Source of the DNA: Phycisphaerales bacterium
Lineage (GTDB): Bacteria > Planctomycetota > Phycisphaerae > Phycisphaerales > SM1A02
DNA length: 64,000 nt
Direction: 5' to 3'
Assembly: GCA_029242715.1 (NCBI GenBank)
Contig: JAQWTL010000012.1
Span: 62,001 to 126,000, forward strand
Shown: piece by piece, positions 22,918 through 62,666 of the stretch
How positions within the stretch are numbered: position 1 is the first letter of the stretch
Layout: every line of letters starts with the position of its first letter
Position numbers and translations under genes: made by a program
The notes under the pieces: generated by a model
What the model was told of the DNA's origin: nothing
The model's database searches: none
Seen by the model: only the letters and a program-made list of their open reading frames with translations

Positions 22918-23064
22918 GGCGAATGCTTTTCTGGTGGTCTGGGAATTGAAGTTCTGGCGTGGAAAGCCGTTTCCTGAGATCCCCTGTGGAACATTGCAGG
23001 AAGAAGGCGAGTAGGCTGGGTTAGACCGCGGTCATGATCAGCCGCGGGCCCTCATGAGGTGACC

Positions 23065-24024
23065 ATGATCCCCCCTGATCAGAATCAAGTGGACCAGGCT
23101 TGGCAGCTACGCCAGGAAACCATCAAGCGGCGACTCTGGCAGTTGATCGGAATCGCAGCAGGCCTCTCTTTGCTGATCCATTTCGGGATCATGTTCTATC
23201 TGGGACAGGTCAAGCGTTCGGGTCCTCCGGCGCAGGTCGTTGAAATGGTCATGGAGTTTCCAACGACACGAACAGTGGAGGAGCTCACGACCCTGTCTGA
23301 AACGGACCTTGCAGAGCCGGATGTTGAATCAAGGTCTGAGCTTGATCGCATCCTGGAGCCCGATATCCCCTCGCCAGAGGAATCCGCTGCAGCTGAGTTA
23401 TCCGAATCCAATGTTGGAGCGACTCCAACTCTGGGCGGATCGGGGCAGAAGGGGGTGAGTGGTCAGGCTGCTCTTGGTGGGGCTGGTGGAGCGGCTTCGT
23501 TCTTCGGGGTCTCAAGCAAGGGTGAGCGATTCGCTTACATCGTCGACCGTTCAGGCTCGATGGCAATCAATGATAAATTGATACTGGCTACGACTGAATT
23601 GAAGAGGTCGGTAAAAAGACTTCCGGACTATGCCCAGTTCTTCGTAGTTTTCTTTTCCAGCAGAATGACGCCCTTGCCATCGTGGCAACAGGGTTGGGTC
23701 CGAGCACGTCCTCATCAGTTCAACAGGCTGGTTGGCTGGATCCGAAAAATCAATGACGAAGGGGGGAATGGTGGAACCCAGCCGCTGAGTTCCTTTCGGC
23801 GTGTTCTGAGTCTTACGCCCAAGCCGGATGTCATTTTCTTCCTGACAGACGGTCAGGTGCAGGGGATGACTGCTGCTGATGTGGCGAATCTGAATCGAAA
23901 AGGCGAGCCATCCGTCATCAATACCATTGCCTATGCAACCAATGAGAGTCAGCAACTGCTTGAACGTATTGCTCATGAATCAGGCGGTGTCTACCGGTTT
24001 GTTCCCGTGAGGTCGACGCAATGA
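23065..24024 (+). CDS. Membrane-anchored VWA-domain protein, TonB/TolA-like topology
   Basis: 319 residues from ATG 23065 (GAGG five bases upstream; a GTG two codons earlier is less likely). A basic N-tail leads into one transmembrane helix (residues 24-46), then a long acidic Pro/Glu/Ser linker (~55-118) and a Gly-rich segment ending GGAASFFGVSSKG. The von Willebrand A domain (154-315) follows, with a complete MIDAS site: Asp161-x-Ser163-x-Ser165, Thr238 and Asp262. Such domains bind a protein ligand through a metal. It opens an eight-gene overlapping operon with ExbB/ExbD homologues, and the N-terminal topology is that of TonB or TolA. The function is unknown. Confidence 0.88.
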   Translation: MIPPDQNQVDQAWQLRQETIKRRLWQLIGIAAGLSLLIHFGIMFYLGQVKRSGPPAQVVEMVMEFPTTRTVEELTTLSETDLAEPDVESRSELDRILEPDIPSPEESAAAELSESNVGATPTLGGSGQKGVSGQAALGGAGGAASFFGVSSKGERFAYIVDRSGSMAINDKLILATTELKRSVKRLPDYAQFFVVFFSSRMTPLPSWQQGWVRARPHQFNRLVGWIRKINDEGGNGGTQPLSSFRRVLSLTPKPDVIFFLTDGQVQGMTAADVANLNRKGEPSVINTIAYATNESQQLLERIAHESGGVYRFVPVRSTQ

Positions 24025-25148
24025 TTGTGCTTCTTCTTGGTCCAATGATTTTGTGCAGGCTTGCCCTTGGGCTTGATGTCGTCGAGTTGAGAGGGGATCT
24101 GGGCGAGTTGCAGGGGACCGTGCTGGCTTCGGATGAGGCCACCCTTCGTATCGAGAACAGTGAGGGCATCAGGCAGGAAGTGGCCTGGGATCTTGTTCGG
24201 GATATCCGGTTTGATGACCCAGATGGTCAGAACAAGGCCATGGCCGATCGACTTGCGCGTGCCAATGACATCTGGAGGGCACGTTCTCGATTGCAGCGTG
24301 GTGATGTAGATCTGGCAGAACCATTGTTTGAAAAGTATTTTGTTCCCACGCCTTCGAATCGAGATGAAACGTCACTGATCATTGCCGAGGGCCTGCTTCG
24401 TTGTCGTCTGAGCAGAGGCGATCTGGTTGACGCCATACTGCCAGCTCTTGAAACGATGCGATTGCGCCGGCTTGGTGTCGAAACAGATCGCTATGAGCAG
24501 CTCGGCCTGCTTCATGATCCCGGGTCTGGCCTTTGTATCTACCTGCCACCAGCCTGGGCTCATGAGACAGCAAGATCTCGGCTGCTCAGTCAACTGGAAC
24601 AGTGGGATGCCGGCGGCGACGAGACCCTTGCAGATGTTGCGGATACTTACCGGGTTCTGGTGGAATATCCATCCGGCACAATACCGGAGAGTTTGCTTGA
24701 AAAAGAAAGCGATCCAGTCCAAAGGGCTGGCCAGGAGCATCCCGCTTTCAGGCTGCTTGAACTGGCGGTGGAATCGCGGCGGGATTCTGTCGAGACAAGG
24801 CGATCGGCACGTGCCAAGATGCGATCTCTGCTGAAGCAGCCTTCCGACTGGAAGCGTCCATGGCTGCATTATCTGCTTGGTGTATCCCTTCTTCAGGAAT
24901 CAGGTGATGGCATGCGAAGGAAGGGGCTTGTCGAGTTGGCATGGATTCCTTCCCGCTACGGATCTGAGCATCCGTATCTTGCCGGTATCGCCATGGCTAT
25001 GATGGCTGCTGAGTTGGACAGGCAGGGGGAGACAGAGCCGGCAGCCAAGCTCAGGTATGAACTGGGTACCCATTATGAGAATCACCCGGCCTTTCGGCCA
25101 CGTGTGGCCGACACTGTGCAGAAATCACAGGAGGAATTGATGCGATGA
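24021..25148 (+). CDS. Secreted solenoid-like protein of the VWA-ExbBD operon
   Basis: 375 residues; the start overlaps the VWA stop (ATGA). A signal peptide (IVLLLGPMILCRLALG) is followed by a small β domain (VVELRGDLGELQGTVLASDEATLRIEN), similar in pattern to the N-terminal domain of the S1C protease in this window. The rest is helical with TPR-like periodicity (for example RGDVDLAEPLFEKYF). No catalytic motif is seen. It probably acts in the periplasm as a binding partner of the VWA/ExbBD complex; this is inferred from gene order only. Confidence 0.8.
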   Translation: MIVLLLGPMILCRLALGLDVVELRGDLGELQGTVLASDEATLRIENSEGIRQEVAWDLVRDIRFDDPDGQNKAMADRLARANDIWRARSRLQRGDVDLAEPLFEKYFVPTPSNRDETSLIIAEGLLRCRLSRGDLVDAILPALETMRLRRLGVETDRYEQLGLLHDPGSGLCIYLPPAWAHETARSRLLSQLEQWDAGGDETLADVADTYRVLVEYPSGTIPESLLEKESDPVQRAGQEHPAFRLLELAVESRRDSVETRRSARAKMRSLLKQPSDWKRPWLHYLLGVSLLQESGDGMRRKGLVELAWIPSRYGSEHPYLAGIAMAMMAAELDRQGETEPAAKLRYELGTHYENHPAFRPRVADTVQKSQEELMR

Positions 25149-25888
25149 CGATCGTTCCATACACGCTTTTCTTGTCGGTGCCGAGTACTGGCGCCGCTAC
25201 CGATGTTGCACAGGTTCGAACCTGGTGGGACACGGTCATGGATGGAGGCCCTGTTGGTTTCATCATCATCTCGCTCAGTATTGTTGCGCTTGCTCTTTGC
25301 ATCATTCATTTCATACAAATTCGACGTTCCTCATTGTTGCCGGCGCAGCAATTGGAGGAAATCGACAAGCGGCTGCTCGCTGGAGATGTTGCTGGCGCGA
25401 CCACTTACTGCCTGGACCCAGTCAATGACAGTTTTCTGACCCGTGTCATGGCTGCAGGTCTTGCGAGATATCAAGCATCTGCATTTGGAGTATTTGAAAT
25501 CAAGAACACGATCGAGGAGGCGGGGCAGGACCAGGCCGCACGCCTGTATCGCTCCACAGATGGCCTTGGAGTCATCGGCACGATCTCTCCATTGCTTGGC
25601 TTGTTGGGAACAGTCGTCGGCATGGTCGGAGCGTTTGAATCAATGTCTCTGAGCGGCGGCTCCAACTATGAGCAGTTGGCTTCCAATATCAGCATGGCGC
25701 TGGTAACCACCTTGATGGGCTTGTCTCTTGCCATTCCTTGTGTGGCTCTGTTTACCTGGTTCCGGAACCGTATAGATACTCTGGCTTCTGAGGCTGGTCG
25801 CCAGGTGGAACGACTTGTCACACATCTGGAAAGCGGCGCGATGGCCGGGGCGAATCTTGCAAATGGGCAAGGGGGCAAGAAGAGCTGA
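25145..25888 (+). CDS. ExbB/TolQ/MotA-family proton channel protein
   Basis: 247 residues; overlaps the preceding gene by four bases. One transmembrane helix near 35-57, then a cytoplasmic loop. Two more helices carry the family signature DGLGVIGTISPLLGLLGTVVG (cited in part, ~136-158) and ISMALVTTLMGLSLAIP (~181-200). The family forms a pentameric stator through which protons drive work across the periplasm with ExbD/TolR. Two ExbD genes follow at once. The soluble loop is short, closer to TolQ/ExbB than to MotA. Confidence 0.94.
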   Translation: MTIVPYTLFLSVPSTGAATDVAQVRTWWDTVMDGGPVGFIIISLSIVALALCIIHFIQIRRSSLLPAQQLEEIDKRLLAGDVAGATTYCLDPVNDSFLTRVMAAGLARYQASAFGVFEIKNTIEEAGQDQAARLYRSTDGLGVIGTISPLLGLLGTVVGMVGAFESMSLSGGSNYEQLASNISMALVTTLMGLSLAIPCVALFTWFRNRIDTLASEAGRQVERLVTHLESGAMAGANLANGQGGKKS

Positions 25889-26307
25889 TGCGTTTTTCTC
25901 CCAAGGGCAAACGCGAACGCCGGCTTGTCGTCGAACTGACATCGATGGTCGACATCGTGTTCCTTCTCATCATTTTCTTCATGGTGACTTCTGACTTTGC
26001 GCGTGACGCCAGGGCTGAAGTTGATCTTCCGTTGCTGCAAGGTGAACGGGCGGAGCAATCAGAAGAGGCTGGTTTGTTCATCAATATTGATGCTGAAGGA
26101 AATATCATCCTGTCTACTTCCGAGTCCCCCGTAACAGTCGAGCAACTCGCAGACCGGCTCCGGAAACTCGTTATTCAAGAAACGACACCCAAGGTCACTG
26201 TTCGTGCTGATCGAAATGCTTCCATCATTCGATTCAATGAGGTCATCCGGGCTTTGAACGAAAGCGGAGTGTCTTCAGCTCGCATCGCCACAGAGGTTCC
26301 AAGGTAA
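25888..26307 (+). CDS. ExbD/TolR family protein 1
   Basis: 139 residues, starting in the TGATG shared with the ExbB stop. The single N-terminal helix has the proton-carrying aspartate (Asp22 in TSMVDIVFLLIIFFMV), then a periplasmic domain rich in β structure (LFINIDAEGNIILS). The C-terminus is the usual KVTVRADRNASIIRFNEVI segment. It is the dimeric rotor/arm partner of ExbB/TolQ. Confidence 0.94.
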   Translation: MRFSPKGKRERRLVVELTSMVDIVFLLIIFFMVTSDFARDARAEVDLPLLQGERAEQSEEAGLFINIDAEGNIILSTSESPVTVEQLADRLRKLVIQETTPKVTVRADRNASIIRFNEVIRALNESGVSSARIATEVPR

Positions 26308-26311
26308 TCCC

Positions 26312-26731
26312 ATGCGTTTCAGCATGCGACAGCATCGTGGGGGCAACCGCCTCATCATGAACATGACCAGCATGATTGATGTCACGTTCCTGCTGTTGGT
26401 CTATTTCATGGTGTCCACTGTTCTGGCGAGTCCTGAGGACAGGCTTACGCCGACTATTCGTACCCAGGATGAATCAGCGAGTGGCAGTAATGCCGACTTC
26501 CAGCCTCAGATCGTCGATGTGCTCATGGTCGGAGGAAAGCCGACATATCGCCTTGGTCAGATTGACATGACTTCCGTGGCGGATTTGAAAGCCCGTCTTT
26601 CAGGTCTTCCTGTGGAATTGGGGGTATTCATTCGTGGGGGTGAAGGTGTCTCCGTTGGATTTACCATGGCGGCAATCCAAGCAGCTCGTGACGCTGGATT
26701 CGACCAGGTGACATATGTTCCGCTTGATTAG
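26312..26731 (+). CDS. ExbD/TolR family protein 2
   Basis: 139 residues, four bases after the first ExbD gene and of the same length. The helix carries Asp23 (TSMIDVTFLLLVYFMV). The periplasmic part is more diverged (YRLGQIDMTSVADLKARL, VGFTMAAIQAARDAGF). Two different ExbD proteins in one operon suggest a heterodimeric arm, as proposed for some other ExbBDD operons. The 3' end overlaps the next gene by 17 bases. Confidence 0.93.
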   Translation: MRFSMRQHRGGNRLIMNMTSMIDVTFLLLVYFMVSTVLASPEDRLTPTIRTQDESASGSNADFQPQIVDVLMVGGKPTYRLGQIDMTSVADLKARLSGLPVELGVFIRGGEGVSVGFTMAAIQAARDAGFDQVTYVPLD

Positions 26732-29339
26732 GCACAGAAAACTCATTGGAAGAAGCAGAAGTCTGCTGGCCATCGTGTGCATGGGCGGCCTGCTGATGCT
26801 TGTCTCTCCTGCGTGTTCATTTGAAGAGGTTGATACATGGCTTGAGGACCGAGGCATGGATCAGCTTCTCGCAGAGTATCTCGAGCAGCAGCTTCCAGGA
26901 ATGGCTCCTCAGGACAGAGCAGAAACAACCCTCAGGCTGGCTCGCTTGTATGCCCGGCTTCTCAGTCAGACCGAAGACCGCGCACAACGAGTCATTCTTG
27001 AGAAAAAGAGCCGTCGCTTGCTTGAGGAGGTGGGAGGCGCGGCAGCAGAATCTCTGCGGCTCGAGCTGTTGCATGGGATCTATCTTGGTATTGAGGATGC
27101 AGCAGAGCGACACAGGCTTCAGCTTCTCGATCAAACAAGCCAAGCCGAGACCATCGAACGTCTCAGGTTGTTGATCGCAGAACTGGATCAACTTCATGCT
27201 CGCGTTGATCGTCTGAGGGACAAATGGAACAACGCTTCAGGGAGAATGCGAGCCAGGGTGGCTGGGAAGTCGCAGTTCGAATTGCTGAATGAAATGTCTT
27301 CCCGGATCGATTTTCTCTCTGGTTGGTGTCATTACTACCTGGGCTGGTTGACAGGTTCAGTCGCGGAGGCAGAGCTGGCGGAGCGTCAGTTTGCCGGAAT
27401 TCTCATGTTGGACCAGCTTGACCCTGATGAGGTGTCAGTTGATCTGCGTTCATCTCCTGCAATTGCCTGGACGATCATAGGCATGGCACTGACCAGTTCC
27501 ATGACATCTTCTGAAGCTACGGCACTTCGCTGGCTGGATTTGCTTGATCTGGCAATCGTTCCCGAGGATATCCGTGAACAAGTTCCAGGATGGCGTTTGG
27601 TTGTTCTGCTCGAGCATCAGAAATTCAAACAAGCTCTGCAGCTCCTCAAGGCCATGGCCTATCTGCCTGGCGGGCGTCCAGTGTCCTGGGTTCGTCTCGC
27701 AGCCGTGTCGGCTCTTGCACATGCGGGTCAACCGGAAGCAGACGTGCTGGCATCAGAGTCACTGGCAATGCTTGCATCCAGTGGCGAACTCGGCCAGATC
27801 CAGAATATCGCTGCTCGTTATGGAGATGAGATTGGCCTGGACAGCTTTTCATTCAACCATGCCAGGGCCATCATGGAATTCGGGTTTGCCAAGAAATTGG
27901 AGGATCAGGATCCCATCGCAGCAGAAGCAGACAGGCGCCATGCCTGGAGGCTGGCCCTGAAATCAATCGAAACGGCATTGAATTCGGAAGACCGAGGCCA
28001 GTACAACTCGGCTTTTCAGCAGGCGCGGCTTCTGAAAGCCTGGTCGATTTATTACTTGCAAAGATATGAGGAAGCACGAGATCTCTTCGAGTCCGTCTCG
28101 CAGGAACTGAAAGCAGATGATGCCAGTGAATCGCTCTGGATGGCTTATGTCGCCGAAGAGCGTCGATGTGTCGAGTCTCCATCGATTGGCACCGAGGAAC
28201 TTGACCGACTTGTTGAGCGTTACCTGGAGCGTTTCCCGTCCGGGCAAAGAGCGGGTGAACTCATGGTGCGACGAGCATCACGAGGCGAGATCCCATCGCA
28301 AGAACGTGTTGATGATTTTCTGCAGGTTCCACTGGGTTCCCTGGCACGTCCGTTGGCAAGAATGCGTGCTGCTGACATGCTCTACAGACTCTATCGTGAG
28401 GCAGAACCAACAGATAAACCTGAAGCAGGCGCTGAATACCTTTCTTTGGCTGTTCCAATGATGCAGGAAGATGATCGGACGGGTGGAGAGGTCGCTCAAT
28501 CTCGCAGCGTTGCTCGGGCTCGACGTGTGCTGGAAGTGGCAACGAGTCCACGTGTCCTCCGTATGGTTGCTGCTGATTCGGCGATGAGAATTCTGCGTAA
28601 CCGGGCAGTCATTCTCAAAGAAACTGACACATCGTTGGATGATGAGCTTGATTACCGTGAGGTTCTCATGTTGCTGGCAAGAAACCAGTACTCTCAGGCT
28701 CAGACATTTGTTGATGGACTTCATCAACGAAACGCGTTGTCGATCTGGGCCCGCCTGGCTGCCAGGCGCATGCTGGAACGCGCAAGACAGGAAATCAATG
28801 AATCAGAAGGCGATGAATCGAGGGCCTCTCTCGAGGGTGTTGTTCGCAATGGCGAATATGTACTTTCAGAATCACCTTCGCTTCCGGAAGCCATAGAAGT
28901 TCAATCAGGACAACTCGTTGCATTCAGCGTTGCTGAAGCGGCAGAGAAATTGTGGTTGATGGAAGGAGACTCGCAGTTGGGGGACCGGGCCTGGGAACTC
29001 TATGGAGCATTGCTTGAAGTCTCTCCCAAGAACAAGAGTTTTCTCTCAGGAAGAGGTCGTTTGGCAGCATCGCGTGGAGATACGGATGAGGCTCTGAGAT
29101 GTTGGCGTATTGTCACGGCTGGCAGCCGTGCGGGATCCGATGATTGGTTCCAGGCAAGAACAGCATTGATTGAGCTGCTGGAGGCGAGTGATCCGTCACG
29201 GGCACGTGAGGTCATGGAGCAGCACATGGCCTTGTATCCCGAATTTGGTCCTGTTCCTTGGGGTGAACGGCTCAGGTCTGCTGCTGATCGCCTTGGGGCC
29301 AATGTGAATCCTGATGATGATCCGGAGGCGTTGCCATGA
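26715..29339 (+). CDS. Large secreted TPR-repeat protein of the VWA-ExbBD operon
   Basis: 874 residues. An N-terminal basic stretch and hydrophobic helix (LLAIVCMGGLLMLVSPAC) form a signal sequence; the cysteine at its end could be lipidated, but the -3 residue is not ideal. The mature part is almost wholly helical with repeated TPR-like pairs, for example AEAELAERQFAGILMLDQL, AWSIYYLQRYEEARDLFES, and a C-terminal LYGALLEVSPKNKSFLSGRG. No enzyme motif is seen. It overlaps ExbD-2 and the next gene (ATGA). It probably forms a periplasmic scaffold. Confidence 0.85.
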   Translation: MFRLIRHRKLIGRSRSLLAIVCMGGLLMLVSPACSFEEVDTWLEDRGMDQLLAEYLEQQLPGMAPQDRAETTLRLARLYARLLSQTEDRAQRVILEKKSRRLLEEVGGAAAESLRLELLHGIYLGIEDAAERHRLQLLDQTSQAETIERLRLLIAELDQLHARVDRLRDKWNNASGRMRARVAGKSQFELLNEMSSRIDFLSGWCHYYLGWLTGSVAEAELAERQFAGILMLDQLDPDEVSVDLRSSPAIAWTIIGMALTSSMTSSEATALRWLDLLDLAIVPEDIREQVPGWRLVVLLEHQKFKQALQLLKAMAYLPGGRPVSWVRLAAVSALAHAGQPEADVLASESLAMLASSGELGQIQNIAARYGDEIGLDSFSFNHARAIMEFGFAKKLEDQDPIAAEADRRHAWRLALKSIETALNSEDRGQYNSAFQQARLLKAWSIYYLQRYEEARDLFESVSQELKADDASESLWMAYVAEERRCVESPSIGTEELDRLVERYLERFPSGQRAGELMVRRASRGEIPSQERVDDFLQVPLGSLARPLARMRAADMLYRLYREAEPTDKPEAGAEYLSLAVPMMQEDDRTGGEVAQSRSVARARRVLEVATSPRVLRMVAADSAMRILRNRAVILKETDTSLDDELDYREVLMLLARNQYSQAQTFVDGLHQRNALSIWARLAARRMLERARQEINESEGDESRASLEGVVRNGEYVLSESPSLPEAIEVQSGQLVAFSVAEAAEKLWLMEGDSQLGDRAWELYGALLEVSPKNKSFLSGRGRLAASRGDTDEALRCWRIVTAGSRAGSDDWFQARTALIELLEASDPSRAREVMEQHMALYPEFGPVPWGERLRSAADRLGANVNPDDDPEALP

Positions 29340-32194
29340 ATCAACATGATCCCATGCGGCGATTCCTGGGCCTGGATTCTTCTGCGGATCCCCTTCAGGT
29401 GCTTGGCCTTGGTCCGACCGATCTGAACATGAAATCGATCCTTGAGGCTCGTGACAAACGTGAGCGTGAGATTGAAGAGCATCCTGATGGGCAATCGGAT
29501 CAAGCCCAATTGGTCAAGGCTCATGTTCAAGATGCTGCAGTCTTGCTTCTGGATTCTGCTGCCCGAATGTCGGCTCTGGCTCGGCACATTCCTACGGATG
29601 TAAAAAATGTTTCTGCGGCAGAGAGTTCTTCAGTAACCGAAATCACCAGTTTTGACAGACAAGTTCTGGGCGTTCTTACAGCGTGTGGCGGCTGGAACAG
29701 TCAAAGTCGAGTCAAATTGATGATGATCGCGGCACAACATGGGGTGGCACCATCCCAGTTGATGGATGTGCTGATGGGCATGACAAGTTGGCTCAGGAGT
29801 GGGGGTGCTGCGATCAACAGGCCAGCCGAGAGTCTTGGCTCGCCTGGAGCTGCGATGCAGACTGCTATGGCAGCCACGCGAAATTCACAGAATTCCCATG
29901 CATTTGATCGCTTTGTTGATCGCTGGACACCTGATATTCGTGCAAATGATGGGGCATCCGTGGCTCGTCTTTCGATTCTTTTTGCAGGTATCACGATTCT
30001 TCTGCTGATTCTGATTGTTAGTTTTCTTGTTTCAACACCCAGTGGTAACAAGGAGGCCATTCTTGACGTGGATTCAAGCCAGGCCACGAGGTCTCTGAAT
30101 CGCCCCTCTGATGGAAATTCAATTGAAGGGATTCCGGGTGAACAGGTCGTCGACCAGGACGGCCACTTTGTCACCCGGGTGGAGATTCCATCCAGCCTTG
30201 TTGATGCGTCTGATGCAGTTGTGTCGACCACTGTGGGATTGGATCTTCTCGCCGAGGCGATCGGACGGGGTGAAGAGGCCAGTTCTACGATATCTACGTT
30301 TGCCGAGTTGATTGATGTTGCTGCACAGGGATGGTTTCTCGCAGGTGATTCCCAGCGAACTGATCTGGTTGAATCAACTGGTCGTGTCTTTGAAATGATC
30401 GCGGGCGATATCGCGCAAGCAAAGTCACTTCTTGCAAATCTGAAGTTGCCTCCGGTGTCTTCTCAAGATGTCGAAGCGATTCCCGTCGCCACGTTTCATT
30501 CAGGAATTCTTGGCGCCATTACCGAGAACCGAAGGATTTCGCCGTCCATTCGAGAAGAAGCTCGACGCATTCTGGCAGAGCATGGAATTGCAGGCTTGCG
30601 TGGTGATGGTTTTTCATCTGCTGCGATTGCCTGGTTGAATCAGGTCCGGCAGTCACTTCTTGAAGGAACGAAAGTAGGTTCGGACAAGGAACTCCAATGG
30701 GAGATCTGGACGATGTGTCTGCTTGCGTTGGGCGATGTCCCAGGGAGCCAGGCGTCAATCCTGGTGGCAGTGGAAGGGATTGTTCGTGATGGGTTGGAGA
30801 TCGGTTCACCGAGTCCCGCTCGCCGGACACTTATGCGAACTCTGAACAGTGTTGATTACATCGGTTCCCCCTTGGCTCGAACTGCTTTTCTCGGTTTATA
30901 TGTTGATGAATCGCTTGATTCCCGCCGACTTGGAATCTTGACGGATCTTCTGGCGAGCAATGTGAGTTCATCCTGGTTTGATCAGTCGATGATCGTGGAT
31001 TCTTCAGCAGACATGGCCCGCAGGGAGTATCTGGCAAATGTTCTTGCGTCGAAATGGCCCGGAACCAGGCAGATCGCAGTTCGCAGGCCGATGCCTGTCC
31101 CTCGTGGATTTGATGATCAACTCGCCGCATTCTGGTTGGAGAAGTGGGGGCTTGTAGAGATCTTGCCGCCGGGACGTTCCGATGTTGCCATGCTGGAGCA
31201 CCTTCTGGATCTACGAGTGTTGAACCAGTCGGCGTCTGCAATCGTCGACGGTGATGCGGCCGCGGCAAGCCGAATATTCAATCGCATGGAGAATGACATG
31301 ATTCTGCAAGGGGATAATCCGCTTGTAGATCAGGAGTTCAACTCGATGCGGGCCTGGGGACAAAGGATGTCAAAGGCTGGAGACCGTGAAGAGAAACTGG
31401 CCTTGCTCAATGAGTTGATGAATCATGGCCCTGGTGATCTTGGCCCAAGCGATGCAGCCGTGCTTGCAAATGTTGCCCTGGCAGGGGCCACTCGAATCCG
31501 TGAGCGAGCACATCAGGTCATCGAACAAAGATTTCTGAGTGATCCCGAGCTTGTTTTAGCCGTCTTGAATGAGCTGCCCCGTCGTCCATCAGAAGATGTC
31601 TCGGCCTTTCTGGACGAGATGGTCGGGCAGTCGCTGCCTGATGTCCAGGCTGCGCAATGGGGTTTGGAGATCAGGCGGCTCCTTGCGGAACGTGCCATGG
31701 AACTCAGAGCCCGGGATAACAAGAGGATCGACTATCTGGCATCGCTTTACAGGGACTCGGTTCTGGAAGAGGTACGAAGTCTCATGCAAGTTGAAGCAGA
31801 ACCAGATGTTTCTGCCGCCAGGGCTCTGGCCTTGCTTGCAGAGTCACGCACCGATCGCATTCGAGGAGTGATGGCAGCATCAGACATGGCGATTCTCTCC
31901 AGGATGATTCAGGAGCATGAAGTTCGCTTTCGTCTGGCGGAAGGGCCGCTTCAGCAGTCGCTTGTTCGATCACTGGCTGTGCTGGATCTGGTGACCATGG
32001 AGTGGTCCATCAGAATGCCATCTCAAATGGAATCATTTGATTGGATTCAGGAAGATCTTCGGTTCCAACTGCCTGTTGCGAGCCATGTATTGGAGCAACT
32101 GGTCCTTATTGAAATGGCGATTGGCAAAACCTGGCAGGTGGTTATCGAGGATTATCGAAAGAGGATCCGCATGAACAAGGGACCCATTGGATGA
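29336..32194 (+). CDS. Single-pass membrane protein with J-like N-terminal domain
   Basis: 952 residues. Residues ~8-85 (RRFLGLDSSADPLQVLGLG ... AAVLLLDSAAR) resemble the short helical domain found at the N-terminus of many planctomycete membrane proteins. It recalls a J domain but has no HPD motif. One transmembrane helix lies at ~209-234. A long helical C-terminal part (~270-950) would be periplasmic if the N-terminus is inside. No catalytic motif is seen. The start overlaps the TPR gene and the stop overlaps the last gene of the operon, both by ATGA. It is a likely link between cytoplasm and the envelope complex. Confidence 0.82.
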   Translation: MNQHDPMRRFLGLDSSADPLQVLGLGPTDLNMKSILEARDKREREIEEHPDGQSDQAQLVKAHVQDAAVLLLDSAARMSALARHIPTDVKNVSAAESSSVTEITSFDRQVLGVLTACGGWNSQSRVKLMMIAAQHGVAPSQLMDVLMGMTSWLRSGGAAINRPAESLGSPGAAMQTAMAATRNSQNSHAFDRFVDRWTPDIRANDGASVARLSILFAGITILLLILIVSFLVSTPSGNKEAILDVDSSQATRSLNRPSDGNSIEGIPGEQVVDQDGHFVTRVEIPSSLVDASDAVVSTTVGLDLLAEAIGRGEEASSTISTFAELIDVAAQGWFLAGDSQRTDLVESTGRVFEMIAGDIAQAKSLLANLKLPPVSSQDVEAIPVATFHSGILGAITENRRISPSIREEARRILAEHGIAGLRGDGFSSAAIAWLNQVRQSLLEGTKVGSDKELQWEIWTMCLLALGDVPGSQASILVAVEGIVRDGLEIGSPSPARRTLMRTLNSVDYIGSPLARTAFLGLYVDESLDSRRLGILTDLLASNVSSSWFDQSMIVDSSADMARREYLANVLASKWPGTRQIAVRRPMPVPRGFDDQLAAFWLEKWGLVEILPPGRSDVAMLEHLLDLRVLNQSASAIVDGDAAAASRIFNRMENDMILQGDNPLVDQEFNSMRAWGQRMSKAGDREEKLALLNELMNHGPGDLGPSDAAVLANVALAGATRIRERAHQVIEQRFLSDPELVLAVLNELPRRPSEDVSAFLDEMVGQSLPDVQAAQWGLEIRRLLAERAMELRARDNKRIDYLASLYRDSVLEEVRSLMQVEAEPDVSAARALALLAESRTDRIRGVMAASDMAILSRMIQEHEVRFRLAEGPLQQSLVRSLAVLDLVTMEWSIRMPSQMESFDWIQEDLRFQLPVASHVLEQLVLIEMAIGKTWQVVIEDYRKRIRMNKGPIG

Positions 32195-32934
32195 ACTGCA
32201 TTATCAAGTCAATCTTGCTGGCAATAACAGTCCTTCTCATGGGTGCGTCTTCTGCATCAGAGCGACGTTTCGAGGACAGACTCATGGCGCTGCGGCCTGT
32301 TGATGCCAATAGCTATTTCATACTCGGGGAAGATGTGGCTGAGATCGCCAGAACAGATGTTGAGCGGGCTCTTGCCATCAGGCTCTTTGTCCTTGCTGAT
32401 CATCTTGACCACAATCGCTACCACCGCAGTTCGCTGCTGGCGATTCGTCCACTGGTAAATGATCCGGTTGCGCTTCAGTTGCTGGACTCCAATCTGAGAT
32501 CATTGTCTGGAGCAGTCAGTCTGTTACCTGACAAGGCAACAGGAGATGAGCGGGAGAATGAATCCATACTTGCGGTTGTCGAGGTTCTGTCGGCTTTGAG
32601 GCGAGGAGATCGAACGGCTATGGAATCGAATCTCAGAAAGAAATCGGTTTCAGAGCGAATTGATTCACTTGAGCACGTTCTCCCTGGTAACTCTGAGTGG
32701 ATGCTCAAGAAGGTTTCTTCGGCCAGGCGTGGAAAGCCAGTTCTGGGAGAGGATGATCTCATGGCAACACTGCGTGTGCAGGCCGCATTACTTGGCAGTG
32801 AAGTACAGCCATGGTCCGTGGATCTGCACTCAAGTCATGGTGTGCCAATGACGATGATTGATCCCGTTCCGCTGGTTGAGATATTCCACATCGATCCCGA
32901 CCGGGCCACATGGCGCGGTGGTCGCTGGGAATAG
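32191..32934 (+). CDS. Small secreted protein closing the VWA-ExbBD operon
   Basis: 247 residues with a signal peptide (KSILLAITVLLMGASSA). The mature part is helical (FILGEDVAEIARTDVERALAIRLFVLADHLD looks TPR-like; only part is quoted as a motif) and ends in a compact region with PVPLVEIFHIDPDR. No recognisable domain. Its start overlaps the preceding stop, which makes it the eighth gene of a fully coupled series. Expression with the ExbB/ExbD genes is therefore expected. Confidence 0.8.
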   Translation: MNCIIKSILLAITVLLMGASSASERRFEDRLMALRPVDANSYFILGEDVAEIARTDVERALAIRLFVLADHLDHNRYHRSSLLAIRPLVNDPVALQLLDSNLRSLSGAVSLLPDKATGDERENESILAVVEVLSALRRGDRTAMESNLRKKSVSERIDSLEHVLPGNSEWMLKKVSSARRGKPVLGEDDLMATLRVQAALLGSEVQPWSVDLHSSHGVPMTMIDPVPLVEIFHIDPDRATWRGGRWE

Positions 32935-34697: not shown

Positions 34698-36416
34698 TCA
34701 ATCCAGGGGAAGCAGGCCATCGAATCGCAGGCTGCCCTTGCCCCGTTGAAGTTCGTACATCTGGTTGGCCTTCAGATCACCAAACAGCTCATGGTGGCCA
34801 TCCAGCCATATGACCTCGACATCTTGCAGCTTCGTCTGTGGCCCCATTCCAACATGGACTCGGGGGTCATTGGCTGCAAAGTAACTATGGGCTGACTGGA
34901 TCGGACGAGTGATCTGCCTGTCGCCAAGCCTGGCTGTGAGAACACCGCCCAGGGAATCGCGTCCGTGCTCGTCCAATACCCTGATCAGGCACCAGTTGCC
35001 CGGGTCCTTGACGATGTTGCGGTACAGGTTCGCGGGTGCATCACGGTTGATCACCAGGATGTCCACAAGGCCATCATCATCGAGGTCACCGAATACTGCA
35101 GCACGACTGGTCCGATGAATGGTGGCGTTGGTGCCCCCCATGGGGGTGACCATTTCGAAACGGCCACTGGTTTGCCCCTGGAGAAGAATGTCTTCTTGGG
35201 CATAGGGGTCCTTCTCGTGGGAGTTGTAACGCCGTTGTACGTGTCCAGTTGCCTCGTAAAGATCCAGGAGACCATCATTATCAAGATCGATCCAGCCCAG
35301 ACCGAATCGGGTATGGGAACTGGTGGCTCTCTTGACACCACGTCTTGCTGTGGCATCGATGAAATAGTCGCCCTGGTTCAGGAACATTGAATCGGATTCA
35401 TTGACCAGATTGCATACGACAAGATCAAGATCGCCGTCGTCATCAATGTCCGTGCTGCCGACACCCATGCCGGCTTTTTCCTGGCCATCTTCATCCATGG
35501 CGCAACCGGCTCGCATGCCGACATCCTGAAAACGTCCATCGCCCTGATTTCGCCACATCGTGTCTGGCTTACCATCATTGGCGATGAACACATCGATGAA
35601 ACCGTCATCGTCATAATCGCCTATTGCAATTCCCAGTGCGGTTCGATTCAGCATGTCGATGCCGGCTTCGCTGCTCACGTCTTCGAATGTTCCATCTCCA
35701 CGATTGCGATACAACCGATCAGAGGCTGCCGTGGGGTAGTTTCCAGGGGCGCAATAGTCCTCTTTGCCAAGGCTGGATTGGCAGGCGATCTCGGATTGAG
35801 GGGACCATTCCAGATATCCGCCGGCGTACAGATCCAGATCGCCGTCAGCGTCATAATCGAGGAACGCAGTTGCGGAGCTCCATTCCCGGCCGGCAACTCC
35901 TGCAATCTCGGTGACATCCTCGAAACGACCACCATCGTTTCTGAGCAGTGTGTTTCTGCCGAGGTTGGTCACGTACAGATCGATGTCACCATCGTTGTCA
36001 TAATCCCCGGTCGTCACGCCCATGCCGTATCCGCGATCACTTGCGCCGGCGGCATCTGGTACTTCACTGAACATCCAGTCCCCGTCATTGCGGAAGAGCT
36101 GATTGGGGAATTGGCTGTTCTTGGGAACATGTCCGGTTTCATCGATCTGACCGCCCTGTACGAAGTACAGGTCAAGATCTCCGTCATTGTCATAGTCCAG
36201 CATGGCGGCGCCACCGCCAATGATTTCAGGCAGGTAGTAATCGCCCTTGGCGCCGGACTTCCACGTGAATTGCACACCTGATTCGGCAGCAACATCCTGG
36301 AACCATGGAAGGGGGGTGGCAGACTGTGCAGTAGGTTCTGGGACGGAAGTGTTATTGGAGTCTTCGCAGGCGGTCAATGCAGCTGCAGTGGAGAGGATGA
36401 TCAGCGAGGCTCTCAT
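34698..36416 (-). CDS. CRTAC1-type lipoprotein (FG-GAP propeller + ASPIC/UnbV domain)
   Basis: 572 residues. Lipoprotein signal ending LTAC (Cys17). A FG-GAP β-propeller follows with many Ca loops (MLDYDNDGDLDLYFV, GDYDNDGDIDLYVT, LDYDADGDLDLYAG, IDIDDDGDLDLVV). The C-terminal ASPIC/UnbV domain (~470-565) is marked by LGGVLTARLGDRQITR and DVEVIWLDGHHE. The family is abundant in planctomycetes and acidobacteria; its role is thought to be extracellular binding, without known ligand. The start overlaps the stop of the TPR lipoprotein gene by four bases, so the two are made together. Confidence 0.92.
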   Translation of the reverse strand: MRASLIILSTAAALTACEDSNNTSVPEPTAQSATPLPWFQDVAAESGVQFTWKSGAKGDYYLPEIIGGGAAMLDYDNDGDLDLYFVQGGQIDETGHVPKNSQFPNQLFRNDGDWMFSEVPDAAGASDRGYGMGVTTGDYDNDGDIDLYVTNLGRNTLLRNDGGRFEDVTEIAGVAGREWSSATAFLDYDADGDLDLYAGGYLEWSPQSEIACQSSLGKEDYCAPGNYPTAASDRLYRNRGDGTFEDVSSEAGIDMLNRTALGIAIGDYDDDGFIDVFIANDGKPDTMWRNQGDGRFQDVGMRAGCAMDEDGQEKAGMGVGSTDIDDDGDLDLVVCNLVNESDSMFLNQGDYFIDATARRGVKRATSSHTRFGLGWIDLDNDGLLDLYEATGHVQRRYNSHEKDPYAQEDILLQGQTSGRFEMVTPMGGTNATIHRTSRAAVFGDLDDDGLVDILVINRDAPANLYRNIVKDPGNWCLIRVLDEHGRDSLGGVLTARLGDRQITRPIQSAHSYFAANDPRVHVGMGPQTKLQDVEVIWLDGHHELFGDLKANQMYELQRGKGSLRFDGLLPLD

Positions 36417-37813
36417 GGTGCCGTGCCAGTTTCTGTTGGTGTTTGGCTGAACCGTTTCTGGAGCTGCAGCAAAGCGGGGTGTCCGGGAGCAACCTGTATG
36501 CCGTTTCGTACCGCCTCGATTGCGCCAAGATTATTGCCCTGGGCGTGTCGTGTTTCGGCAAGTACGCCCCAGGCAAACGGATTGCTTGAATCAACAGTAG
36601 TGACCTGTTGGGCGTGTCGCTCGGCTTCCTGGAATCTGCCCGTTCGAAGCAGGACATGGGCGTAATGCAGTCGTTCTTTCGGATCCTGAATGCCAAGGCG
36701 AAAAGCTTCATCCAGAGCGAGGACCGCCCTGTCGGTATTGTCCTGAATCAGAAACAGTCTTGCGACTTGCAAGTGTGCCTGTGGCAGGAGCGGGTTGTAT
36801 TTCGCGGCCGCAACAGCGTGATTGAAGGCAAGCGATTGCTTCTTGCTCTGCAGGTAGGCTATTGAAAGATTGAGGTGCGTGGCGGCGTTCTCCTCATCGA
36901 GGCGAAGGGCTTTCTTCAGTTCCAAAATCCAACGGCTCGTATTGCCACGCAGGCGGTAGACTTCACTTCTTCGATGGATCAGATTGACATCGGTGGGCCA
37001 GGTTTCCTGGCCGCTTGCAATCACTGCCGATGCTTGATCCAGCTCTCCACGCTCAAGGTGACGATCAATCCGGTTCATGGTCGCATCGAGTCCCTGGGCA
37101 GCATCGTTGATCTCATCATTCCAGGGATCGGGGTACTCAGGTTGATTGGCTTCGCCATTGGCAAAGTAGGCATCGGCCTGGTTCTTGTTGCCAGCACGTT
37201 GGTGTGCTTGGCCAAGGAGATACAGGATGTAGGGATGGGCTGACATGCCGCGAAGCTGTTCCAGGATGCTGATGGCCTCCTCAACTCTGCCAAGTGCCAC
37301 GAGTGTTCTGGCAAGCGCGACGTATCCACCTGCATTATTGGGATCTAGTCGAAGCGATTCTCGTGCCAGCGGTTCAGCTTTTTCAGGCCGGCCCATGTCC
37401 AGTTCCCAGATCGCGGGACGCCAATAGCTTGGTGCAATGGTGCTGTCGAGTTCACGCGAGCGGGCAGCGGCCGAGATCGCTTCTTCGTAGTTGCCGTTTT
37501 CCTCGAACGCCAGGGCCAGCCAGTACCACTGCCTGGCTTCACCTGGTGAGGCCTGGATGATCTGCTGCCAGGTTTGAATGGATTCGCCCGGCAGTTCATT
37601 GGCCTGATAGATTTTTGCGAGTTGAATCCGCGCGGCTAGATCAGCGGGGTTGGCTTCGATAGCAGCCAGTTGCTGATTGATTGCCTTGAGGACCTCGCCT
37701 TGGACGACCTCCTGGTTGGCTGGCCTAGGTGGAGCAGGCAGATCGCTGACACTCGTTTTCGAGCAACCGAGCATCAGAAGGCAGGCCAGCAGCATTGTGA
37801 TCAGGAGCTTCAT
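36413..37813 (-). CDS. TPR-repeat lipoprotein paired with CRTAC1 protein
   Basis: 466 residues with a typical lipobox LMLGC (Cys17). About ten tetratricopeptide repeats follow, for example AARIQLAKIYQANELPGES, NYEEAISAAARSRELD, AGGYVALARTLVALGRVEE and LLRTGRFQEAERHAQQV. TPR arrays bind other proteins. It is first of a two-gene operon with the CRTAC1 lipoprotein gene (ATGA overlap). Two similar TPR/CRTAC1 arrangements are found within the next 11 kb. Confidence 0.92.
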   Translation of the reverse strand: MKLLITMLLACLLMLGCSKTSVSDLPAPPRPANQEVVQGEVLKAINQQLAAIEANPADLAARIQLAKIYQANELPGESIQTWQQIIQASPGEARQWYWLALAFEENGNYEEAISAAARSRELDSTIAPSYWRPAIWELDMGRPEKAEPLARESLRLDPNNAGGYVALARTLVALGRVEEAISILEQLRGMSAHPYILYLLGQAHQRAGNKNQADAYFANGEANQPEYPDPWNDEINDAAQGLDATMNRIDRHLERGELDQASAVIASGQETWPTDVNLIHRRSEVYRLRGNTSRWILELKKALRLDEENAATHLNLSIAYLQSKKQSLAFNHAVAAAKYNPLLPQAHLQVARLFLIQDNTDRAVLALDEAFRLGIQDPKERLHYAHVLLRTGRFQEAERHAQQVTTVDSSNPFAWGVLAETRHAQGNNLGAIEAVRNGIQVAPGHPALLQLQKRFSQTPTETGTAP

Positions 37814-61511: not shown

Positions 61512-62666
61512 GTGGTGACAGATGAGACAGGACGCCAGGCCCCCGAGGGGGCCGTCGAACCCCCGATCAGTGGGGGCCCGCGATCAATCTCACTGGTTGT
61601 TCCGACCTATCAGGAGGGCGACAGCCTTCCGCCATTGATCAAGCGGCTCGAAGGCTTGCGGTCCGCTGGCTGGGATCTGGAGTTGCTGATTGTTGATGAT
61701 GATTCGCGTGATGGCACGGAGAAATACATCCAATCTCTGAATGCCCCCTGGATCCGGCTGATTATCCGGCAAGAGGAACGCGGGCTGAGTACCGCCGTCA
61801 TGCGAGGGCTTGATGAAGCAAGTCATGACATCCTGGTCGTCATGGATGCGGACTTGAGTCATCCCCCTGAAGCCATTCCAGCATTTGTGCAGGCACTTGA
61901 GGGAGGCGCCGATTTCGTGGTGGGCTCCCGTTATGTACCGGGCGGTTCAACCGAGGACGGGTGGGGATACCTCAGGTGGGTGAACTCGAAGGTTGCGACT
62001 GTCATCGCGCGTCCCTTTACCCGCGTGAAGGATCCGATGAGCGGCTTCCTGGGACTTCGCAGGCAGACCTTGCAGCAGGCAGAAGACCTTGATCCTGTCG
62101 GTTACAAGATCGGTCTTGAACTGATTGTGAAATGCCGTTGTGACAATGTTGCAGAAGTGCCGATCCATTTCAGCACGAGGCGTCATGGGGAAAGCAAGCT
62201 TACGCTGAAGGTTCAACAGGATTACCTTCGCCATATCCTGCGACTGGCAAGGTGGAAATATCCGGAGCGATCCAGTTTCATCCCCTTTGCGATCGTCGGC
62301 GCCATGGGCGTCGGGGTGTATGTGGCGTTGCTTGCGATCCTGGTTCCGCTGCTTTCTGATTCAATCGGAAAATCCTGGACCATTGCAATTGCCATACTCC
62401 TCACCATGTGCTTCAACTTCATTCTCGACAGGAAGCTGGCGTTCTGGTGGTCTCCCAGGGATCAGGTCGCGGGCCAGTTTCTCGGGTTCCTGGCCATCTG
62501 CTCTGTTCCCGTGCTCATCAACTTCTGGGTGACCTCCTACTTTGCAGTAGACGATCAGATGGCAACACCCCTGGCAGGTGTCATTGGTGCCGCAGTAGGT
62601 TCGGTGCTTGGGCTTGTCTTCAACTGGACGATCAGCAGGTTGCTGATATTCAGCCGACCACGTTGA
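61512..62666 (+). CDS. Glycosyltransferase family 2 (DPM1-like) fused to GtrA
   Basis: 384 residues from GTG 61512 (a second GTG follows at once; GGAG nine bases upstream). GT2 domain ~25-250 with SLVVPTYQEGDSLPPLI, the metal motif VVMDADLSHPPE and FLGLRRQTLQ, matching polyprenyl-phosphate mannose/glucose synthases. The last ~120 residues form four hydrophobic helices of the GtrA type (FAIVGAMGVGVYVALL, LTMCFNFILDRKLAFWW), which move lipid-linked sugars across the membrane. The two together suggest making and flipping of a lipid-sugar for surface polymers. Overlaps a convergent lipoprotein gene by 17 bases. Confidence 0.93.
   Translation: MVTDETGRQAPEGAVEPPISGGPRSISLVVPTYQEGDSLPPLIKRLEGLRSAGWDLELLIVDDDSRDGTEKYIQSLNAPWIRLIIRQEERGLSTAVMRGLDEASHDILVVMDADLSHPPEAIPAFVQALEGGADFVVGSRYVPGGSTEDGWGYLRWVNSKVATVIARPFTRVKDPMSGFLGLRRQTLQQAEDLDPVGYKIGLELIVKCRCDNVAEVPIHFSTRRHGESKLTLKVQQDYLRHILRLARWKYPERSSFIPFAIVGAMGVGVYVALLAILVPLLSDSIGKSWTIAIAILLTMCFNFILDRKLAFWWSPRDQVAGQFLGFLAICSVPVLINFWVTSYFAVDDQMATPLAGVIGAAVGSVLGLVFNWTISRLLIFSRPR

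Follow-up and report, generated by a model that had tools for sequence, protein, structure and literature searches.

Which protein does the motor drive in an operon that encodes one ExbB/TolQ-type and two ExbD/TolR-type channel subunits and no TonB? The question is raised by a 64,000-nucleotide stretch of DNA from a Phycisphaerales bacterium (positions 62,001 to 126,000 of contig JAQWTL010000012.1, assembly GCA_029242715.1), which we refer to as the window. To our knowledge, TonB and TolA are the only well-understood periplasmic force transducers, and TonB was rejected as the driven part inside the operon because no operon protein matched it. An earlier note on this DNA had proposed that an adjacent VWA protein has a topology suited to the driven part of an undescribed machine.

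Our check of the open reading frames (ORFs) in the window identified eight adjacent ORFs on the + strand, at 23059-32934, in the order VWA-SOL-ExbB-ExbD1-ExbD2-TPR-JTM-SML. The first encodes an inner-membrane VWA protein of 321 aa (23059..24024, with a GTG start at 23059 or an ATG start at 23065), assigned by its motifs and by Pfam family PF13768 (1e-6), and is followed by SOL, a secreted protein of 375 aa (24021..25148) whose gene adjoins VWA in relatives too. Next is the motor trio, comprising an ExbB/TolQ-family channel subunit of 247 aa (25145..25888; PF01618, 2e-27, and alignment), ExbD1 (139 aa, 25888..26307; Pfam, alignment and tree) and its distinct paralogue ExbD2 (139 aa, 26312..26731; Pfam and tree), with PF02472 matching the two ExbDs at 7e-25 and 4e-11. 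The last three genes encode TPR, a secreted TPR solenoid of 874 aa with weak Pfam TPR repeats (26715..29339); JTM, a J-like/TM protein of 952 aa described from a structure model and its topology (29336..32194); and SML, a secreted all-alpha protein of 247 aa described from a structure model and gene fusions (32191..32934). A Pfam search of JTM, SML and SOL returned no significant match. The VWA/SOL, SOL/ExbB, TPR/JTM and JTM/SML junctions are 4-base overlaps, ExbB and ExbD1 overlap by 1 base, and ExbD1 and ExbD2 are separated by 4 bases. The tight coupling described in the earlier note thus holds for eight ORFs on one strand, but not its limit of four bases on every overlap or gap, since ExbD2 and TPR overlap by 17 bases. 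Sigma-70 and terminator scans of the locus gave no useful operon boundary. Elsewhere in the window, on the - strand at 34698-37813, an ASPIC/UnbV FG-GAP protein and a TPR protein are encoded with a 4-base overlap.

We compared 40 fetched regions and ten further loci using a profile built for each protein. The full eight-gene set was identified at 31 loci including the window, of which 30 are distinct, as L041 and L060 represent one contig; order and strand are identical in all 31, with a largest gap of 62 bases. These loci span 15 coded genera in four families (f1-f4) of the Phycisphaerales-type order to which the window belongs, as well as uncoded MAGs. The eight-gene arrangement is real and beyond chance, and the expectation that gene order would be conserved in related genomes was borne out. 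Amongst f1-f4 genomes the TPR profile matched 95 of 98, almost always singly, and a VWA search found matches in 143 of the 151 genomes of the order, some of the weaker ones spanning the VWA domain alone. Upstream, pyrH, usually with frr, adjoins VWA in nearly all full loci that retain this sequence.

Beyond these families, other forms of the operon were found. In families f5 and f6, VWA-ExbB-ExbD-ExbD is retained and VWA is often doubled in tandem; some of these loci also have a gene the size of SOL, and in most of those examined the ExbDs are followed by a gene for a large secreted protein. Two tandem VWA genes precede ExbB in L090, L091, L095 and L096, and L091 has three ExbDs. In other classes, VWA-SOL-ExbB-ExbD-ExbD-TPR is kept in L114 and L116. 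JTM is mostly restricted to the order: a phylum-wide search matched 6 of 246 genomes, five of which belong to the order, and a weak JTM match was also found in L120. Family VWA proteins are present in L110, L112, L113, L117, L118 and L122 with no ExbB or ExbD recognised nearby.

The VWA protein has a transmembrane helix (TMH) at residues ~29-48 carrying S37-x3-H41-x6-L48, after which come a hydrophobic VxMxxEF stretch and, between the end of the helix (~48) and the start of the VWA-domain match (~160), a linker of ~110 aa. TonB and TolA share the motif Ser-3X-His-6X-Leu-3X-Ser (SHLS), whose Ser and His contact TM1 of ExbB/TolQ in a network of a conserved Ser, a Trp and a TM3 Pro (PMC12905483). 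As the S-x3-H spacing in the VWA helix equals that of TonB and TolA, the VWA protein bears a motor-docking signature. In an alignment of 30 diverse VWA proteins, His41 is conserved in 30/30 and Ser37 in 29/30, and His41 is the sole invariant residue N-terminal to the glycine-rich segment that leads into the VWA domain; the other invariant residues (G150, D163, S165, S167, L188, D264 and G310) lie within or beside that domain. S-x3-H was found in 70 of 76 VWA proteins. Leu48 is Leu in 17/30 and Ala in 12/30, and the final Ser of SHLS is kept in only 2/30, so that the complete motif is not a property of this set. The MIDAS is intact (D163-x-S165-x-S167, T240 and D264), and only VWA families matched the protein, with no TonB C-terminal domain found in it. 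The topology proposed for a driven part was therefore upheld, with the addition of a TonB/TolA motor-docking motif in the helix. One natural exception was noted at L070:13017-14174, where the helix reads SLAAN and lacks the docking His in a complete operon.

The core of this idea proved to have been described independently, as a prediction, in PMC12204202 (Mol Biol Evol 2025, section 8, Fig. 4a,b), so the machine is not undescribed as first thought. That study predicts inner-membrane VWA force transducers whose genes neighbour those for TolQ, a pair of TolR and a TPR protein, lists Planctomycetes amongst the carriers, models docking with AlphaFold3, gives the function as unknown and raises gliding as a possible role. 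It reports SHLS in "many", not all, of the VWA transducers, and the complete motif is thus not family-defining. A predicted motor-box strand behind the TMH is a further trait of that family. The window VWA protein fits this family, having the N-terminal Ser-x3-His TMH, a linker, a vWA domain, and TolQ, two TolR and TPR neighbours; the S/H motif, the linker of ~100 residues, the adjacent TolQ, the heterologous TolR pair and the TPR gene are common to both. Here, in contrast, VWA is first in the operon, SOL, JTM and SML are additional, the ExbD1/ExbD2 split is ancient, and the neighbourhood is pyrH-frr. A limited literature search found no description of the eight-gene form, the ExbD1/ExbD2 ancestry, the fusions or the relocation of the trio; new in this work are the eight-gene form, the ExbD pairing, three gene fusions, the relocation of the motor trio and near-universality within families. 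The main text of two PVC transposon studies does not mention ExbB, ExbD, TolQ or VWA. The salt-induced exbB (RB12053) and exbD (RB12055) of R. baltica could not be linked to the VWA-cluster family.

The channel subunits retain the residues expected of a proton-driven motor. S45, T156, T188, T189 and P198 of ExbB are invariant in 21 relatives, with T156 and T189 aligning with T145 and T178 of TolQ; the Trp of the TolQ TM1 network, as read from the alignments, is not kept. ExbB scored 65 bits against the NCBI TolQ equivalog, below its cut-off of 221. The channel aspartate, Asp22 in ExbD1, is invariant in 24/24 sequences of both ExbD kinds. In a tree that drew on other classes as well as on the paralogous cluster of the source genome, 56 first-position and 56 second-position ExbD sequences separate without error (support 0.98). 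Position and ancestry agree, indicating that the pair is old; from these sequences, ExbD1 and ExbD2 are an ancient and obligate pair, for which a heterodimer would be the natural expectation. In the L087 genome the ExbB-ExbD1-ExbD2 trio is located elsewhere as one block, and its relocation as a block in that genus shows the motor to be a separable cassette.

The remaining proteins are predicted to be largely periplasmic. SOL comprises TPR-like helices after what is probably an N-terminal SH3-like barrel; a relationship to CpoB was rejected (E 0.75), and a PDB search of SOL gave no meaningful match. Hydrophobic, signal-like N-terminal segments were identified in 35 of 39 SOL, 34 of 37 TPR and 21 of 32 SML relatives, the last count being partly lowered by trimmed starts in some. 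One strong TM is found at ~200-270 in nearly all JTM members (~206-232 in the window copy), and the JTM model (mean pLDDT 81) has a small N-terminal helical domain and a long alpha-solenoid past the TM, which suggests a cytoplasmic J-like domain and a large periplasmic alpha-solenoid. The J-like label is only suggestive because the HPD motif at residues 49-51 is incompletely kept (H in 26/32, P in 24/32 and D in 9/32). A fold search with JTM returned a generic ARM/HEAT-type solenoid with low TM-scores (best Z 8.6 over 118 residues), which points to no particular relative, and no J-domain chain was amongst the structure matches listed, which is a weak test. A PDB profile match of JTM to VirB10 (E 0.002) was rejected, as the matched residues are in, or immediately behind, the TM and in the low-complexity linker. 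SML is modelled as all-alpha, and its best match in a structure search had only E ~1. SML copies in L072, L080, L086 and L088 have extra cysteine pairs that are absent from the window copy; those in L072 are of the CxxC type, like a DnaJ zinc finger. SML is fused to the C terminus of JTM in L061 and L085, and SOL is fused to TPR in L087, which supports contacts between the fused partners.

We then considered whether the trio energises a TonB encoded elsewhere, with the VWA and solenoid genes merely co-transcribed. The source genome, a 3.2 Mb draft in 46 contigs that is about 97% complete and among named relatives is closest to Phycisphaerae/Phycisphaerales MAGs, has five ExbB-type places. Contig C28 (L106:3276-8658) carries a second, paralogous VWA-ExbB-ExbD-ExbD cluster with a large secreted protein; BamA-, Skp- and LpxD-like genes lie ~4 kb downstream of it. 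On contig C22 (L108:6300-7944), a short ExbB (170 aa) and a short ExbD-like ORF accompany a proline-rich TonB-like protein whose helix reads AATLH rather than SxxxH, while contig C30 is MotAB-like and contig C9 has a lone ExbB. A candidate TonB is encoded after an ExbD on contig C41 (L107:4652-6330); this TonB-like protein has an SxxxH helix, its C terminus matches TonB weakly, and no ExbB was recognised nearby. This gene adjoins its own ExbD, however, and the genome has further ExbB genes; moreover, the docking motif is in the VWA protein itself, and VWA adjoins the trio across the phylum, making a TonB from elsewhere a very unlikely client. The reported absence of TonB and TolA accordingly stands for the operon, which has no TonB match, but not for the genome, given the gene on C41. 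No TolB was recognised in the draft source genome (~97% complete; best TolB_N match 14.9 bits, cut-off 22.4). Three OmpA-type domains were found, two on one contig and the third in a MotB-like protein; the former two may leave room for a Pal.

Other known systems were compared as well. A surface motility or adhesion machine driven by the proton motive force, in the manner of Agl-Glt and with the VWA head as adhesin, would fit the intact MIDAS, the gliding floated in PMC12204202 and the make-up of Myxococcus AglR/AglQ/AglS, which likewise has one TolQ, two TolR and periplasmic TPR partners (PMC3169522). The operon nevertheless encodes no GltG-like TonB-domain protein, the eight proteins having given no match to a TonB-domain Glt protein, and no adhesin predicted to be a barrel or a lipoprotein; the VWA head is tethered to the inner membrane, and near-universal retention in the families suits a core role better. 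We regard such a machine as unlikely. VWA proteins frequently serve as adaptors with TPR partners, a habit that would suit a periplasmic chaperone or scaffold that assembles the motor or TPR proteins and is not itself driven. Assembly alone poorly explains an invariant His41 in a membrane helix, though, and we consider an undriven VWA protein quite unlikely. The TPH-vWA/TolQ family (PMC12204202, Fig. 4c,d) also combines VWA and TolQ, but it has no TolR/ExbD and an Asp helix in the pore, whereas the operon in the window has two ExbDs and a VWA protein with a His in its helix. Zorya ZorAB shares a MotA/ExbB-type channel; Zorya was rejected, as only a weak 14-bit match to ZorA was found, with no ZorB, ZorC/D or ZorE. 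TonB-ExbBD and TolA-TolQR share the channel residues and the S-x3-H docking motif, but here a VWA head replaces the C-terminal domain, the two ExbDs differ, and the locus lacks TonB, TolA and TolB.

From the gene set and its order, the motifs, the ExbD pairing and the distribution, we infer that a complex is probably formed in which proton flow through ExbB/ExbD1/ExbD2 generates the force that pulls a VWA arm and the periplasmic solenoid proteins serve as adaptors. A probable ExbB pentamer would surround an ExbD1-ExbD2 heterodimer, and proton passage at the ExbD aspartates and ExbB threonines would power the motor. The S-x3-H helix would dock VWA onto the exterior of ExbB as in TonB and TolA, and VWA would be cycled so that its head, on the flexible linker, grips and pulls a periplasmic or outer-membrane partner; the intact MIDAS suggests that this grip is metal-dependent. 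SOL, TPR and SML would act as periplasmic adaptors, and JTM would link the complex to the cytoplasm. The operon itself encodes no outer-membrane partner, lipoprotein or barrel.

For the task of this VWA-pulling motor, our leading guess, a tentative one, is constitutive upkeep of the outer membrane or peptidoglycan, as in Tol-Pal; transport seems rather doubtful, and gliding or adhesion less likely still. Carried further, the operon may take the place of Tol-Pal in planctomycetes: a constitutive motor, built on an obligate ExbD1/ExbD2 heterodimer and linked to the cytoplasm through JTM, would pull a metal-dependent VWA hook to hold or constrict the outer membrane in cells whose division does not use FtsZ. 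In all its parts, this proposal is doubtful. If true, a third transducer that combines an integrin-like VWA head with a heterodimeric ExbD would mean that one motor serves quite different mechanical tasks. The near-universality of the operon in four families, together with the lack of a recognisable TolB in the source genome, offers a direct test of how planctomycetes maintain or constrict their outer membrane, and the list of eight genes and key residues opens the system to genetics in culturable planctomycetes.
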